Origin: Oscillospiraceae bacterium
Lineage (GTDB): Bacteria > Bacillota > Clostridia > Oscillospirales > CAG-272
DNA: 40,789 nucleotides
NCBI GenBank assembly: GCA_015065385.1
Contig: SVQK01000111.1
Span: forward strand, 1 to 40,789
Direction of reading: 5' to 3'
This document shows positions 5,023 through 11,638 of this stretch, in pieces; positions within the stretch are counted from its first letter, which is position 1, and each line of letters starts with the position of its first letter. The notes under the pieces are model-generated. The model did no database searches and was not told the origin of the DNA. It saw only the letters and a list, made by a program, of their open reading frames with translations. Both the position numbers and the translations under genes were made by a program.

Positions 5023-5697
5023 TCAGAGATGCGCCCACCGCCCGAGCTCGGAGAGAAAATGCTTTCCCCGGAACACGACCTGCGCGAACAGCAGAAGGAT
5101 GGAGACCGTCATGGAAAGGAGGGCGAAATGGGCGTAGAGCCCCGTCATCTTCCCGGTGAAATACAGGACCGCAACCGCCGCCGTGCCGCAGAGGGCGATG
5201 AGGAAATACCCGGCGTAGGTCCCGAGCCTCCGTCCGTCCACAATGCCCATGACGAAATAGAAAACCGCGAGTCCCGCGCTGAGGACGGGGAGGACGTAGC
5301 CCCAGCTCCATCCGTGCCAGCCGGTCATCCAGTCCCACGGGAGGCAGAGGAGCATGGCGATCACGCTCTCCCAGAGGATCCCCTTGGCGATGTTCTTCCT
5401 CTTCCGCGCGCCGACGTTGACCGTGATCCACGCGCAGACCGTCCCCAGCACGATCATGGTGAAGATCGGCATATGGGGGATATACAGCAGATGGATCACC
5501 GCCGCCACAAGAAGGATCACGATCGCGGCGAAGGTGGAGATGCGGAAAATCAGGTCGTAGGTGTGCCGGGCGGGAATGACCGGAAAAACCCCGGCGCTCT
5601 CGACCGTCTCAGGCGCGTCGGACAGGATCCGTCCGCACAGGGGACACCGCTTTCTCTCCCCGTCCGTCTTCACGCCGCATACGGGACAGTGCTGCAT
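5023..5697 (-). CDS. Zinc-ribbon multi-span membrane protein (DUF6320-like)
   Basis: Predicted protein of 224 residues. The N-terminus is a double-CxxC zinc ribbon (CPVCGVKTDGERKRCPLCGR), followed from about residue 50 by six hydrophobic helices with short loops. Zinc-ribbon plus helix-bundle architecture matches the family I know as DUF6320, commonly found beside alcohol-acetyltransferase-like genes in Clostridia, as here. Function is unknown; a role in helping the neighbouring acyltransferase at the membrane is only a guess. SD GGAGGA and a start four bases after the GNAT gene's stop codon begins show one operon with the two genes upstream. Confidence 0.75.
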   Translation of the reverse strand: MQHCPVCGVKTDGERKRCPLCGRILSDAPETVESAGVFPVIPARHTYDLIFRISTFAAIVILLVAAVIHLLYIPHMPIFTMIVLGTVCAWITVNVGARKRKNIAKGILWESVIAMLLCLPWDWMTGWHGWSWGYVLPVLSAGLAVFYFVMGIVDGRRLGTYAGYFLIALCGTAAVAVLYFTGKMTGLYAHFALLSMTVSILLLFAQVVFRGKHFLSELGRWAHL

Positions 5698-5698
5698 C

Positions 5699-6496
5699 TC
5701 AGTATTCCTCCTTCTTACCGGTTTGTTCTTTTCGCTCCGGGATCCGGACCGCCGACAGGGACGCCCACGCGGGACGAAATCCGGCGCGGACGGCGTTTCC
5801 GACGGAGCGGACGTTGGCCCAGACCGCGCTGTAAAACGGAACCTGACCTGAATCGAGGATCTCCCGGGCGAGGCGGTTAGTCAGCGCGGCCCCGATCCCG
5901 AGCCCTCTGTATGCGGGCAGGACGTTCACGCCGATCTGCATCATGTCGGGACAGTCCTGCGAAGCCCCGGCCAGCCCCACGAGCACATCCCCGTCGTACG
6001 CGCCCGCGCCGATCCGGTCGAGCTCCCGCCGTTTCTCGCAGAGCGCGTCGGACCACTCCGGGCGGTACAGATACGCGAAATCCTCCGGGCCGAGGATCCG
6101 CATCCGGAAGGGGGAGGTCCCGCTGAACCTTCCGATTTCCTCCGGATCGGGGAGAAAGGACGAGACGGCGAACGACAGCCCCGCGCCGAAGGGAGCGAGA
6201 AGCGCGTCCAGATCGTGCGTCCCCTCCGGAGCGAAGAGCTGCCAGAACTCCGGATCCCGCTCGAGCAGCTCCCGCACCCCGTCCGTCAGAGCGGGGTCGC
6301 AGGTCACGACCGCGTTCGGGCCGTAGGTCGTCACATCGAGAATGGCGGGTTCGGTGAGATAGACCCGCGCATTTCCCCGGATCCCAGCGGGAAAGAACCG
6401 GTGCTCCGAAGCCTCGAAGTCCTCCGGAGAACAGCCGTGATCCGCGGCAGACTGCCTCAGGGCGATCTGCCGGATCTCTTCCTTCGTCCAGTTCAT
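5699..6496 (-). CDS. GNAT-family N-acetyltransferase
   Basis: Predicted cytoplasmic acyl-CoA-dependent acetyltransferase of 265 residues. The C-terminal half carries the GNAT core: IGVNVLPAYRGLGIG with the RGLGIG acetyl-CoA pyrophosphate loop (about residues 207-221 of this start), then AREIL, and a final NAVRAGFRPAW block. The N-terminal half (about 130 residues) is a less conserved GNAT-like domain, as in two-domain GNATs. The ATG at 6496 was chosen because GGAGAG (6504-6509) sits seven bases before it; the upstream ATG at 6529 would overlap the preceding gene by 19 bases without a matching SD. Middle gene of a three-gene operon; substrate unknown. Confidence 0.85.
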   Translation of the reverse strand: MNWTKEEIRQIALRQSAADHGCSPEDFEASEHRFFPAGIRGNARVYLTEPAILDVTTYGPNAVVTCDPALTDGVRELLERDPEFWQLFAPEGTHDLDALLAPFGAGLSFAVSSFLPDPEEIGRFSGTSPFRMRILGPEDFAYLYRPEWSDALCEKRRELDRIGAGAYDGDVLVGLAGASQDCPDMMQIGVNVLPAYRGLGIGAALTNRLAREILDSGQVPFYSAVWANVRSVGNAVRAGFRPAWASLSAVRIPERKEQTGKKEEY

Positions 6497-6510
6497 TCGT
6501 TTGCTCTCCG

Positions 6511-7794
6511 TCAGACCAGATAGTTGCACGCCACCACGATGTCCGGATCCACCTTTGCCATGCGGCGGAAGAAGGCCCGCTCCACCTCGTGCTCGGCGAA
6601 AACGGTGGAGAAGGTCAGGGTCATTTTATCCCCGAAGGTACACAGGCAGATCTGGCGGGAGGAGCTGGAGTTGAACACGTCGAACCGCTCGATACTCGAC
6701 GCGAAGGGCTCCGCCATGGAAATCCGCCCGACGTTCGAAAGCGTCACGGTCCGCCGCTTCATGGAGACATTCTGGAGCGTCCTCATGATGAAGTCCTTCA
6801 GGAAAAGGGGGCAGATCCGCACGACCGGATGCCGCTCCATCTTCACCTGAGAGGCCACCTTCTGCTCCATGTTTTCCTGGGTCAGCTCATTCAAAAACGA
6901 CTGCTTCACCGAGGCCGCCACGTCCGCGAGGTCCTCCGATCCCTCGGAAAAATCGTAGGTGATCTGCACGATGCCGAAGAAATTCCGCATGGTCTCGCTG
7001 TCGAAATACCGCCTGAGATTGACGGGCATCGCCACGGCCACGGCTTTTTTCCGGTCGGCGGGCGCCATGGTGTCGCGGATCGAGAGAATCAGCTGCGCGC
7101 AGAGATATTCGGTCACGGTGACGCCCAGAGCCTTCCCCGCCGCATGGATCTTCTCCGCGCTGACCCAGCCCTCCGTGACGTTCTGCCGCAGATCGGGCGT
7201 CTTCGGCTCGCTGAACCGGTAGACCTTCTTCTGCTTGCCCCGGTCGCCGAGGAATTCGAAATTCAGGGGCGAACCGACGCCTTTTTTGAAATTCTCGGTA
7301 AACCCGTCCGCCGCCTGATCGCGCTCGGATACGTCCGGCGTTTCGACCGCGCTCCGCTCGAAGGATTCGGGATGGGCTTCGGCCAGATAGTTTTCCACCA
7401 GATTCCGGAAGAAGACGAACGCGCCGGTGCCGTCGGTCAGGGCGTGGAACAGTTCGAGGTTGATCCGCTTCTTATAGTAGGTCACGGAGAACAACAGTCC
7501 GCCCTCGTCCGTAAAGAGCGGGGTGAGCGCCGGTTCGCACTCCTCCTTCACCTCGGGCTTGACGCCGCTCCGCTCGAGATAGTACCAGAAGATCCCGCGC
7601 CGCACGGTTTCGGTGAACTGCGGGAATTCCTCGAGCGATTCCTCCAGCGCGCGGGACAGGGCGACGGGATCGATTTCCTCCCTCAGCTCGCAGGACAGCC
7701 GGAAGATCTCCGGATCCTCCGCCGAAGCGATTGACGGAAAGATCTTCGCCGCGTTATCCAGCTTTTTCCATCGCGTGTTGCCCGTCTTCCACAT
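6511..7794 (-). CDS. Condensation-domain-like acyltransferase (alcohol acetyltransferase type)
   Basis: Protein of 427 residues of the CoA-dependent acyltransferase superfamily that includes condensation domains, chloramphenicol acetyltransferase and yeast alcohol acetyltransferase. The active-site histidine motif is seen as ELFHALTDGTG (about residues 113-123), a variant of HHxxxDG with one His. A later block, VAMPVNLRRYF (about 243-253) and TLSNVGRISM (about 350-359), corresponds to the conserved second-half motifs. No carrier-protein or adenylation domain is attached, so it probably acts alone on a small alcohol, thiol or lipid acceptor. First gene of the operon with the GNAT and DUF6320-like genes; promoter at 7852-7880. 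Confidence 0.78.
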   Translation of the reverse strand: MWKTGNTRWKKLDNAAKIFPSIASAEDPEIFRLSCELREEIDPVALSRALEESLEEFPQFTETVRRGIFWYYLERSGVKPEVKEECEPALTPLFTDEGGLLFSVTYYKKRINLELFHALTDGTGAFVFFRNLVENYLAEAHPESFERSAVETPDVSERDQAADGFTENFKKGVGSPLNFEFLGDRGKQKKVYRFSEPKTPDLRQNVTEGWVSAEKIHAAGKALGVTVTEYLCAQLILSIRDTMAPADRKKAVAVAMPVNLRRYFDSETMRNFFGIVQITYDFSEGSEDLADVAASVKQSFLNELTQENMEQKVASQVKMERHPVVRICPLFLKDFIMRTLQNVSMKRRTVTLSNVGRISMAEPFASSIERFDVFNSSSSRQICLCTFGDKMTLTFSTVFAEHEVERAFFRRMAKVDPDIVVACNYLV

Positions 7795-7977: not shown

Positions 7978-9003
7978 TTACTTCCGATACTTCGCGCGGT
8001 TTTCGGAGAGGATCCGGTCGCGCTCGAAGGACCAGATCCGGGCAAAGGCCTGATTGGTCTTGGCACGGACGAGATACGGATTCTTCGCCCCGTAGTCGTT
8101 GGAGATGGAGCCGAAATAGCCCCACGCGATGATCGTGCGGGCTCCTGCGTCGTACGCCGCTTCCGTGGCCTCGACGATCTCCTCTTCCATGCCGCGGGGG
8201 GTGTGATAGGTCTGGATCCAGACGTTGTGATCCTTGCCGTAGGTTTCAGCCGTTTCGATGGTCTTCTTCGCGCCGTTGTAGACGAATTCGTAGGGATTCA
8301 CTCCTGTGTAGCCCCAGTACGGGTCGGAGCCGATGTTGCCGAGCGTTTCGATCCCGCCGATCCGCCCGAGGGAGGAGAGATTGATCCCGATCCCCTCGGA
8401 CAGCATGACGCAGACCGCGTTGGAAAGACCCTTCGACGCCGCGTAGTCGCAGATATCCCGGAAATACTCCGCGATGGTGTCGAGGCGGAATGCGGCGGCG
8501 TCTTCGTCCATCGTCTCCGGCATGGGGCGCCCGTACTTCTCCTCGAAGGCCTTACGGCAGAGGGGGCAGGCGCAGGAATAAGCTCCGTCCCGCATCGGAA
8601 GATGGGGCTCGTCCCAGAAGATCGTCTTCGCGCCGGTCCACGCCACGGTGTCGATCCATTCATGCACGAACTGGCGGAACGACGGCTGGCGCAGGCAGGC
8701 CCGCACCGGATCGGGAGTCCCGTCCGAATAGATCTGATGGGCCTCCGGGTGATAGGCGAGGAAATGGGATTTGTCCCCGGGAGGGCCTCCCAGTCCCCAG
8801 TTGTCCAGCCAGACTTCAAGTCCCGCCTCCTCGGAGATCTCCACGATCTCCTTCATGACGCGGCAGTGGCGGTCCCAGTCCGTGTGGGACAGCATGTGCA
8901 CCACTAAATTCATGTGGTTGTCCGCCATGTCCCGCATATCGTTCTCCACATGGTGGAGCATCCGGCAGCCGTGATAGGCCGCGCCCGTTCTCAGCTTCTG
9001 CAT
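7978..9003 (-). CDS. TIM-barrel-like protein, possible glycoside-hydrolase relative
   Basis: Protein of 341 residues without a signal peptide. It is not a family I can name. The pattern of short strands ending in acidic or aromatic residues (LVVHMLSHTDWDRH, EVWLDNWG, TIFWDEPHLP, CVMLSEGIG, NVWIQTYH, TIIAWGYFG) fits a (beta/alpha)8 barrel with the Asp-Glu of FWDEPHL as candidate catalytic residues. CACPLCRKAFEEKYG (about 168-182) is the CxCxxC...F..KYG motif seen in several uncharacterised glycoside-hydrolase-like families. SD GGGAGGA precedes the ATG. It is the last gene of the T-box operon and ends at a strong terminator. Confidence 0.6.
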   Translation of the reverse strand: MQKLRTGAAYHGCRMLHHVENDMRDMADNHMNLVVHMLSHTDWDRHCRVMKEIVEISEEAGLEVWLDNWGLGGPPGDKSHFLAYHPEAHQIYSDGTPDPVRACLRQPSFRQFVHEWIDTVAWTGAKTIFWDEPHLPMRDGAYSCACPLCRKAFEEKYGRPMPETMDEDAAAFRLDTIAEYFRDICDYAASKGLSNAVCVMLSEGIGINLSSLGRIGGIETLGNIGSDPYWGYTGVNPYEFVYNGAKKTIETAETYGKDHNVWIQTYHTPRGMEEEIVEATEAAYDAGARTIIAWGYFGSISNDYGAKNPYLVRAKTNQAFARIWSFERDRILSENRAKYRK

Positions 9004-9021: not shown

Positions 9022-9618
9022 TTATGTCCGGATCAGGACGTCCGCCCGGTCCCGGATCCCGAAGGCGGCCTCGTACCGGATCTCGTACGGGATCCAGCGT
9101 TCCTCGAACAGCTTCAGCCGCTCCGGGCCGTTCCGCGCGAGGATCCGCCTCCGCTGCTCCTCCGGATCGGTCTCCATAAAGCAGCGCAGATCGGCGTAAT
9201 CACCGAAATACGGATGGGACGCGTACGCCCCTTCGATCACCGTCACGGGGGCGGCGGGCAGAGTCCGGGTCCGCGCGATGCCCATGATCTCGTGGCTGAA
9301 CACGCCGTAGGTCAGGCCGGGATCGGCGAGGCGGTCGATGACCTCCGCCTTCAGCCGCTCGTAATGGATGGTTCCCCCCGGTTCGGCGTACCGTTCCGCG
9401 CTCCGCATGTCCCGGGGGAGATAGAAGTCGTCCGTATGGATCACCCGCGCGCCGAAGCGTTTTTCAAGCTCCTCCGACAGCGTGGTCTTCCCGGAGGCGC
9501 AGAAGCCGTCCAGCGCGATCACGAAAGGCTTCTCCGCGTCCCGGATCAGCGAAAAGAGCGGATCGAGCGCGCCGGGGCCGTCGGATCGCAGCATCAGCCG
9601 TTTGTCTTTCATGCCCAT
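9022..9618 (-). CDS. Uridine-kinase-like P-loop kinase
   Basis: Protein of 198 residues of the P-loop kinase class that includes uridine kinase and phosphoribulokinase. The Walker A is LDGFCASGKTT (about residues 36-46), HTDDFYLPRDM (about 60-70) is the substrate/Mg region typical of uridine kinases, VTVIEGAYASHPYF (about 126-139) is the Walker B zone, and RRRILARNG is the lid. The missing lysine-rich lid of true Udk and the small size make the substrate uncertain. It sits 18 bases downstream of the acid-CoA ligase gene, with no promoter between, so it belongs to the T-box operon. No convincing SD precedes its ATG. Confidence 0.78.
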   Translation of the reverse strand: MGMKDKRLMLRSDGPGALDPLFSLIRDAEKPFVIALDGFCASGKTTLSEELEKRFGARVIHTDDFYLPRDMRSAERYAEPGGTIHYERLKAEVIDRLADPGLTYGVFSHEIMGIARTRTLPAAPVTVIEGAYASHPYFGDYADLRCFMETDPEEQRRRILARNGPERLKLFEERWIPYEIRYEAAFGIRDRADVLIRT

Positions 9619-9636: not shown

Positions 9637-11271
9637 TCAGCGGGTGGTCTGCTCTTCCACGAGCCGTCCGCCGCAGTAGATCTCTCTCAGCTTCGGCTTT
9701 TCGATCTTGCCGGTGGGATTGCGCGGAACGTGGGCGAAGATGATCTTCCGCGGGCGCTTGTACCGGGGCAGCTCGAGGCAGAATTCGTTCACCTCGTCCT
9801 CGGTCAGCTCCATGCCCTCCTTGACCTCGATGATGGCCGCCGCGATCTCGCCGAGTCTCTCGTCCGGGAGCCCGATGACCGCGACGTCCTTGATCCGGTC
9901 GTGCTTGCGGAGGAAGTCCTCGATCTGCACGGGATAAAGGTTTTCGCCGCCCGTGATGATGACGTCCTTCTTCCGGTCCACCAGATAGATGAAGCCGTCC
10001 TCGTCCCGCTTCGCCATGTCGCCGGTATAGAGCCAACCGTCCTTCAAAACTTCCGCCGTGGCCTCGGGATTCTTATAGTAGCAGGTCATGACGCCGGGGC
10101 CCTTCACGATCAGCTCGCCGACCTCTTCCCCTTCCACGGGCGTGCCGTCCGGTCTGACGATCTCAGCCTCCCAGAGGTAGCCGGGAACGCCGATCGCGCC
10201 GACCTTGTGGATGTTCTCCACGCCGAGGTGGACGCATCCGGGGCCGATCGATTCGGACAGGCCGTAGTTCGTGTCGTATTCGTGATGCGGGAAGACCTTC
10301 TTCCAGCGGCGGATCAGGGACGGGGGAACGGGCTGCGCGCCGATGTGCATCAGTCTCCACTGATCGAGGCGGTAGTCCTCGAGCTTGATGTCGCCCCGGT
10401 CGATGGCGTCGAGGATATCCTGCGCCCACGGCACGAGCAGCCAGACGATCGTCGCCTTCTCCTGCGAAACCGCCCGGATAATCCCCTCGGGAGAGACGCC
10501 CCGCAGGATCACGGCACGGCTGCCCGAGATGAGGGACCCGAACCAGTGCATTTTCGCGCCCGTATGGTAGAGCGGCGGGATGCAGAGGAACACGTCCCCC
10601 CTCGTCTGCCCGTGGTGGTGCTGTTCGACCTGGCAGGAGGAGATGAGGGAGCGGTGCTTGTGCAGGATCGCCTTCGGGAAGCCGGTCGTTCCGGACGAGA
10701 AGTAGATCGCGCCGAAGTCGTCCTCGTCGAATTCCACGGCGGGAGCGGTGGAGGAGCAGTAGGTCACAAGGCGGTCGTAGCTGTCGGCGAATTCCGGCAC
10801 GGGCTCGCCCACGAAGAAGTAATTCTTGATGAGGGGCAGATCCATGAATACGGAGCGCACGCGGTCGGTGAACTCGGGGCCGAAGATCAGGACCGAGGCG
10901 TCGGCCAGCTCGGCGCAGTACTTGATCTCCTCTGCGGAATAGCGGTAGTTCATCGGAACCGCCAGCGCGCCGGTCTTGAGCACGCCGAAGTAAACGGGCA
11001 GCCATTCCAGGCAGTTCATCAGAAGGATCGCAACCTTGTCCCCCTTCTTCACGCCGCGGGTGAGGAGCAGGTTGGCGAAGCGGTTGGCCTTCACGTCGAA
11101 CTCGCGCCACGTCATTTCGCGGCGGTAGCGTCCCCCGGGAGCGGCTTCGATGAGGGAGAATTCCCTCCATGTGAGATTGGGGTCCGGCTGGTTCTGGGGA
11201 TTGAGCTCCACCAGCGCGACCTCGTCGGGATACAGCTTGGCGTTTCGTTCCAGAAGATCGGTAATGACCAT
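9637..11271 (-). CDS. AMP-forming acyl- or aryl-acid-CoA ligase
   Basis: Class I adenylate-forming enzyme of 544 residues, full length. It should activate a carboxylic acid with ATP to an acyl-AMP and then form the CoA thioester. Landmarks in order: AIYFSSGTTGFPKAIL phosphate loop (about 188-203), YGLSESIGPG (about 338-347), GWLYTGDMAKRDEDGF and DRKKDVIITGGENLYP hinge region (about 410-443), and the catalytic lysine in NPTGKIEKPKLRE near the C-terminus. The acid is unknown; fatty acids or aromatic acids are possible. The ATG at 11271 has AAAGGA as SD. The gene lies directly behind a T-box leader, which is unusual for this family. Confidence 0.88.
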   Translation of the reverse strand: MVITDLLERNAKLYPDEVALVELNPQNQPDPNLTWREFSLIEAAPGGRYRREMTWREFDVKANRFANLLLTRGVKKGDKVAILLMNCLEWLPVYFGVLKTGALAVPMNYRYSAEEIKYCAELADASVLIFGPEFTDRVRSVFMDLPLIKNYFFVGEPVPEFADSYDRLVTYCSSTAPAVEFDEDDFGAIYFSSGTTGFPKAILHKHRSLISSCQVEQHHHGQTRGDVFLCIPPLYHTGAKMHWFGSLISGSRAVILRGVSPEGIIRAVSQEKATIVWLLVPWAQDILDAIDRGDIKLEDYRLDQWRLMHIGAQPVPPSLIRRWKKVFPHHEYDTNYGLSESIGPGCVHLGVENIHKVGAIGVPGYLWEAEIVRPDGTPVEGEEVGELIVKGPGVMTCYYKNPEATAEVLKDGWLYTGDMAKRDEDGFIYLVDRKKDVIITGGENLYPVQIEDFLRKHDRIKDVAVIGLPDERLGEIAAAIIEVKEGMELTEDEVNEFCLELPRYKRPRKIIFAHVPRNPTGKIEKPKLREIYCGGRLVEEQTTR

Positions 11272-11304
11272 TGTGTCGTTCCTTTCTTAAATCCGGGGGA
11301 AAAC

Positions 11305-11603
11305 AAAAAAACCCCGCCGAAATTCAGCAGAGGACGGATCAGATATCCGCGGTACCACCTCAGTTTGCCCCGCTCTCTCGGGCGAAGCCTCCGGGACTTC
11401 GGGAAAACGCGTCCCGCAAGTCCTGCCCGATAACGGCGGCCTCCGTCGCAGCCTACGCGGAACGGACTCTTTGCCCGCTCTTTCGGTGCGCCGCTCGGGA
11501 ACTGTATTCGGAGGGGATCTCCCTGCGGCTTGCACCGACCGCCGCTTCTCTGGAAGGATCGGATCCCGGCCTACTTCTGTTCCGTCATGGCGTTTGAATG
11601 ATT
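11305..11603 (-). promoter_or_regulatory. T-box riboswitch leader, apparent tyrosine (UAC) specifier
   Basis: The roughly 300-base leader between the promoter and the acid-CoA ligase gene contains, on the minus strand, the AGAGA motif (11547-11551), a stem GCGGC/GCCGC with GGTCGGTGCAA loop (11525-11545), GAATACAG with UAC at 11504-11506 in the specifier-loop position, the T-box sequence AGGTGGTACCGCGG (11347-11360), and a G-rich stem side plus seven Ts (11318 down to 11305). T-boxes bind uncharged tRNA: the anticodon pairs with the specifier and the tRNA 3' end with UGGN. UGGU fits a tRNA with A73, as bacterial tRNA-Tyr has. Specifier assignment is by pattern, not by folding. The plus strand of this gap holds the divergent promoter of the next gene. 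Confidence 0.88.
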
Positions 11604-11609
11604 GATGGC

Positions 11610-11638
11610 ATTATACCACGCCCCGAGCGGCTTGTCAA
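11610..11638 (-). promoter_or_regulatory. Sigma-A promoter for the T-box operon
   Basis: TTGACA at 11633-11638, exactly 17 bases, TATAAT at 11610-11615 on the minus strand. Transcription should begin near 11603. Confidence 0.92.

Follow-up and report, generated by a model that had tools for sequence, protein, structure and literature searches.

By its sequence, the leader upstream of an AMP-forming acid-CoA ligase gene of an Oscillospiraceae bacterium is a transcriptional T-box that would respond to the charging of tRNA-Tyr in living cells. It lies on the minus strand of the window, that is, the whole 40,789-nucleotide stretch of DNA (contig SVQK01000111.1) that was analysed. We propose, at a probability of about three in four, that the ligase converts an arylacetate, probably 4-hydroxyphenylacetate, into the CoA form needed for ferredoxin-driven carboxylation on the way to tyrosine, and that uncharged tRNA-Tyr switches this step on. 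The proposal is built on the T-box, its specifier, the matching tRNA and the conserved pairing with the ligase as established from the sequence, together with the operon links seen in relatives and their matching Tyr, Phe and Trp T-boxes.

The T-box leader in front of the ligase gene

The promoter, the T-box leader, the terminator and the ligase gene follow one another in this order on the minus strand, and the ligase starts 56 nt past the end of the T-box match. The features are the following:

11610..11638, minus strand: sigma-70-type promoter, TTGACA-17-TATAAT, the second hexamer preceded by TG (12/12 consensus matches)
11327..11597, minus strand: T-box leader, from stem I to the antiterminator (Rfam RF00230, 101.2 bits)
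11547..11551, minus strand: AGAGA motif in stem I (located by alignment with the Rfam consensus)
11504..11506, minus strand: specifier UAC (Tyr), with GAA on its 5′ side and A on its 3′ side (Rfam alignment and sequence)
11347..11360, minus strand: T-box sequence AGGUGGUACCGCGG (Rfam alignment and sequence)
11305..11332, minus strand: intrinsic terminator, 9-pair stem and seven Ts (sequence, terminator scan and related leaders)
9637..11271, minus strand: AMP-forming acid-CoA ligase, 544 aa (PF00501, 237.6 bits, and PF13193)
9022..9618, minus strand: P-loop kinase-like protein, 18 nt after the ligase

The initial annotation had described a full T-box between a perfect promoter and the ligase gene, and all of its motifs were found as described. 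The RF00230 covariance model matched positions 11597–11327 of the minus strand over its whole length (1–219), scoring 101.2 bits (E 2.3e-21) where the gathering score is 93, and a promoter scan of 561 bases gave two promoter-like sites compared with a mean of 0.1 in shuffles of the region. The reading of a tyrosine specifier was also confirmed, since the Rfam alignment places UAC after GAA in the specifier loop. The loop reads GAA-UAC-A and GUUCC follows it; judged by eye, this is complementary to GGAAC on the 5′ side, thus UAC would occupy nucleotides 2–4 before the loop end, which is the location of the specifier by the TBDB rule as understood here from the main text of PMC7778990. The UGGU bulge (11357–11354, minus strand) can pair with the ACCA end of tRNA-Tyr. 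Two tRNA-Tyr(GUA) genes were found in the source genome and A73 is present in both, which matches the UAC specifier and agrees with the earlier proposal that UGGU fits A73 of this tRNA.

In the predicted fold, the CUC at 11332–11330 is common to the terminator and the antiterminator, making the two structures mutually exclusive. Taken alone, the 3′ region of the leader folded no better than its shuffled versions (z −0.90), and the terminator scan of the region was near expectation (two sites against a mean of 0.9, sd 1.1). The terminator of the window leader is supported rather by related leaders, as a hairpin below −12 kcal/mol with at least four Ts was detected in 47 of the 49 distinct leaders having the strict T-box motif, compared with 2.2% of the shuffled stretches (ten shuffles per leader). 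The pairing score of the antiterminator is the best of many positions and was excluded from the evidence.

Conservation of the leader–ligase pair

Genome counts of the motif were based on tblastn hits of at least 55% identity starting within the first 10 residues, and the T-boxes in the ligase-locus counts were mostly detected by sequence motif, not by the covariance model. A close relative of the ligase (80–97% identity) was present in 22 of the 24 same-genus genomes searched. The T-box motif was located 5′ of the ligase in 20 of the 21 assessable genomes, G016 being the exception; this count is without G020, where only 60 nt of upstream DNA was available. The same leader thus precedes the ligase in related genomes, as the initial annotation had considered. 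The specifier was UAC in all 20 leaders, with an extra A before it in three (L017, L026, and L027), and Rfam covariance matches covered at least 17 of the 20 motif-bearing genomes. The ligase also occurred in 12 genomes belonging to other genera of the family and order, one of which (G049) was left out as it is cut at the contig end. Three of the 11 assessable genomes (G030, G032, and G034) carried the motif, each with UAC, and in G030 it was found 379 nt before the ligase. We conclude from the conserved motif, the pairing and the terminators in the relatives that this lineage has retained the switch and that it is no debris.

According to an alternative that the initial annotation had raised, the leader was left from a lost tyrosyl-tRNA synthetase gene and the ligase is a local replacement. 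T-box motifs do occur in front of tyrS, at 2 of the 30 tyrS loci examined (G031 and G057; for one locus, just 199 nt of upstream sequence was available), and inspection by eye suggested a tyrS T-box also for G028 and G053. However, a leader kept with tyrS at only 2 of 30 loci speaks against the replacement, and so do the tyrS of the source genome, which is located elsewhere (C56:573–1781) with no T-box motif in the 499 nt upstream, the motif standing before the ligase in nearly all assessable same-genus genomes, and the recurrence of the T-box/ligase pairing in other genera and with Phe specifiers. The leftover-leader origin was rejected on the ligase pairing within the genus and on the motif-free tyrS of the genome itself, and we regard it as hardly credible.

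A wider set consisted of the window and the best 80 of 396 ligase relatives in named genome contigs, several of which overlap the same-genus set. Among the first four named contigs, two have "Rumen" in their titles and two bear the label RUG, which we take to stand for rumen uncultured genome. A T-box was found at most 600 nt upstream of the ligase in 36 of the 81 loci, 30 with UAC and six with UUC, and no other amino acid was represented; 35 of these were detected by the strict motif, while L091 (Phe) was added on re-inspection of the 46 rows scored as "none", and L115 was read with Rfam. Sporomusa ovata (L129), a cultured relative, carries such a leader, its UAC being preceded by an extra A, and L118 is a relative behind a Phe T-box. 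No T-box was found within 600 nt in the other 45 loci. The distribution of T-boxes on the ligase tree requires at least 16 changes (L091 counted as without), indicating that the element was gained or lost often. Two sister ligases with an SH-aLRT support of 100 have different specifiers, Tyr in L120 and Phe in L134, thus the specifier seems to have been swapped between Tyr and Phe before the same gene.

The ligase, its neighbours and the IorA link

By its sequence, the ligase is a member of the broad acyl-CoA ligase group. It scored below the cut-off of all 25 NCBIfam families listed, out of 108 matched, and among solved structures the closest in sequence was FadD13, a fatty-acid ligase. The breadth of the family and the lack of a specific call among those 25 would suit a reading in which the leader senses tRNA-Tyr but the ligase takes some other acid useful at tyrosine shortage, such as phenylpropionate, hydroxybenzoate or a fatty acid; the window ligase without iorA nearby and the downstream neighbours varying among loci point the same way. 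Nevertheless, all 36 T-box-bearing loci read Tyr or Phe, iorA recurs downstream of the ligase and the ligase co-occurs with IorA (see below), which together make such a substrate rather unlikely. The ligase is proposed instead to be probably an arylacetate-CoA ligase acting on 4-hydroxyphenylacetate, a substrate that we infer from the T-box specifiers and from the neighbours in relatives, the preference for the 4-hydroxy acid in the window following from the Tyr specifier.

The P-loop kinase-like gene at 9022–9618 possibly shares the transcript of the ligase. In 12 same-genus genomes, a homologue was found 3′ of the ligase and in the same orientation, at a distance of about 12–43, 277 or 578–689 nt, and some other loci were too short. 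Two further window genes (7978–9003 and 6511–7794) were matched only in loci where the ligase is at least 88% identical, the gene at 5023–5697 was matched in one genome, and that at 5699–6529 gave one weak partial match; in this comparison, most of the loci were too short to judge the outer genes.

Of the 80 loci (best 80 of 396), 21 have iorA, which encodes indolepyruvate:ferredoxin oxidoreductase, downstream of the ligase; it always had the same orientation, and its distance from the start of the ligase was 1.65 to 3.7 kb. The recurrent partners of the ligase in relatives are a sodium:solute symporter, IorA, IorB, a PaaK-like ligase and an ACT protein, which stand in this order in the L048 operon. 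The L048 IorA matched TIGR03336 with 733 bits (cut-off 650.9) and IorB reached 268 bits (cut-off 230), while the best match of the PaaK-like protein was PaaK with 522 bits, below the cut-off of 646.3. In two loci, L107 and L115, a Tyr T-box precedes the ligase and a separate Phe T-box precedes iorA further down, the Tyr specifier of L115 being preceded by CAA, not GAA. At least seven PaaK-like genes directly behind a T-box occurred among the matches listed in relatives, and all seven examined read UUC (Phe), with one extra G before UUC in L206. A Tyr T-box heads a symporter-iorA-iorB-paaK cluster in L213, and a Trp T-box (UGG) heads trpB-sodium symporter-paaK-iorA in L214 (G045:C5:62300–69600), an arrangement that suggests an indoleacetate-to-tryptophan arm. 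Genes for an acid ligase, a transporter and an arylpyruvate oxidoreductase all carry aromatic T-boxes, which argues for one task, the formation of aromatic amino acids from arylacetates.

The ligase and IorA were also associated at the level of genomes. Of 59 genomes, 35 have the ligase, and IorA exceeded the cut-off in 34 of these, against 12 of the 24 genomes lacking the ligase (Fisher p 2.4e-5), the sole ligase-bearing genome without such an IorA being G005, which had a partial match of 487.6 bits. Since genomes of one genus are not independent, the comparison by genus is fairer, and it gave IorA in 13 of 13 genera with the ligase against 10 of 22 without it (p 0.0009). The source genome contains two IorA genes over the cut-off (714.7 and 676.5 bits); its ligase gene lies apart from them, and T-boxes were detected upstream of neither the two iorA loci nor the PaaK-like genes.

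Loss of the shikimate route was considered as a reason for a salvage gene and was rejected, as the source genome encodes chorismate synthase and both prephenate enzymes, the dehydratase and the dehydrogenase. With these last enzymes of the shikimate route in place, salvage would not be needed by this genome and would be a supplement. In three genomes that are 98–99% complete (G038, G050, and G054), neither prephenate enzyme scored over the cut-off; the ligase was present in them with no T-box motif before it. These genomes count against the proposal, as do the breadth of the ligase family, the loci and other genera in which no T-box was found, the 16 or more changes on the ligase tree, the separate position of ligase and iorA in the source genome, and its last shikimate enzymes.

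The source genome gave 11 T-box matches at E values up to 0.001, two of them over the gathering score and one with its gene beyond the contig end. Acid-CoA ligases lie behind three of the 11, that of the window included. The other two matches are below the gathering score of 93, namely C94:43457–43700 (L004, L201; 67.3 bits), with the apparent specifier AUC (Ile), and the weak C4:6462–6746 (L010, L200; 34.8 bits), with the apparent specifier GUA (Val). The gene behind each of them encodes a helix-turn-helix fused to a cupin and an AMP-forming ligase, which could represent a possible branched-chain acid salvage route.

Several further T-boxes were noted in passing. Inspection by eye suggested the same T-box/fusion pairing in relatives, for example G032:C3, G012:C100 and G006:C31. 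A T-box of 124.3 bits with an apparent CUG (Leu) specifier (G046:C51, L212:2675–2924) lies about 1.5 kb before an 827-residue ORF, the frame of which contains an AMP-forming ligase match. In the source genome, the T-box at C2:7484–7712 (L001, L202) heads two genes that, as read from their sequences, look kinase-like and, for the second, an 874-residue ORF, like valS. Closely similar T-boxes reading UGG (Trp) are found at two contig starts, C1:1–249 (L005) and C86:1–246 (L006); the latter precedes a TrpB-like enzyme and the former, apparently, a membrane protein and an ABC ATPase.

The proposed salvage route and its known counterparts

T-box genes are switched on by shortage of the cognate amino acid. 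This, together with the gene company of the ligase in relatives, makes it more likely that the acid feeds tyrosine. The link that the initial annotation had drawn between tyrosine supply and acid activation is supported, while its suggestion that the acid is made from tyrosine is not. In the proposed mechanism, uncharged tRNA-Tyr would allow the antiterminator to form and the ligase to be made, whereas with charged tRNA-Tyr transcription would end at 11332–11305. The ligase would convert an external arylacetate, most likely 4-hydroxyphenylacetate, to its CoA thioester; IorAB, encoded elsewhere in the genome, would add CO2 with reduced ferredoxin to yield 4-hydroxyphenylpyruvate, and a transaminase would convert this to tyrosine. 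The switch would thus open a salvage route to tyrosine alongside the shikimate route.

The direction in which IorAB would run is deduced, and the same enzymes could operate oxidatively, converting tyrosine to 4-hydroxyphenylacetyl-CoA and the free acid; for amino acid fermentation, PMC13285125 indeed describes IOR enzymes working in the oxidative direction as well. For a breakdown route, however, a T-box that is on when the amino acid is scarce would have the wrong sense, and AMP-forming ligases typically favour acyl-CoA synthesis according to a passage of the same paper, so that we hold the oxidative direction to be quite improbable. The biosynthetic direction, from arylacetate to tyrosine, may also be one part of something larger. 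Rumen and gut clostridia may possess a T-box acid-salvage regulon, in which the matching uncharged tRNA (Tyr, Phe and Trp, or Val and Ile via branched-chain acid ligases) would turn on both the import of the corresponding carboxylic acid and its conversion to the CoA thioester, which ferredoxin-driven carboxylation would then use. The window gene would be the tyrosine arm of this regulon, a dedicated 4-hydroxyphenylacetate-CoA ligase. The chances for and against this broader scheme seem to us evenly balanced.

The specifier codons name an amino acid and thereby suggest substrates for the ligase, the oxidoreductase and the transporter, which the sequence families alone do not. If the proposal is true, it suggests what a widespread ligase family, with 396 relatives found in a single scan, may act on, reveals how the route is regulated, and provides testable candidates for aromatic-acid cross-feeding in the gut.

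No acid-CoA ligase target was seen in the main texts of three T-box surveys (PMC2494555, PMC3766115, and PMC7778990), and a literature search with mostly open-access coverage did not link a T-box to phenylacetate-CoA ligase or the indolepyruvate route, a link that may be printed elsewhere. Decades ago, Allison (cited in PMC7356843) showed that rumen bacteria can use phenylacetate and branched-chain acids to make amino acids; the same source attributes to Allison (1965) the formation of phenylalanine from phenylacetate in the rumen, and gives isobutyrate and 2-methylbutyrate as rumen precursors of valine and isoleucine.

The window leader shares the fold, the motifs, the specifier logic, the UGGN bulge and the terminator/antiterminator arrangement with the RF00230 T-boxes that lead genes for aminoacyl-tRNA synthetases or for amino acid biosynthesis, but differs from them in the controlled gene, that of an acid-CoA ligase. 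The aryl-acid route of methanogens, and that from phenylacetate to phenylalanine in the rumen, uses the same combination of arylacetate-CoA ligase and IOR, and in relatives these genes lie close together, often with a symporter; here, in contrast, T-boxes that read the matching amino acid stand in front of the genes, and activity and flux are presumed. A Bacteroides AMP-forming ligase adjoining IOR, assayed as an arylacetate-CoA ligase according to a part of PMC13285125, where a biosynthetic role is suggested, is likewise tied to IOR; the term T-box has no occurrence in the main text of that paper. The T-box itself is of a known kind, and its target pathway appears new.
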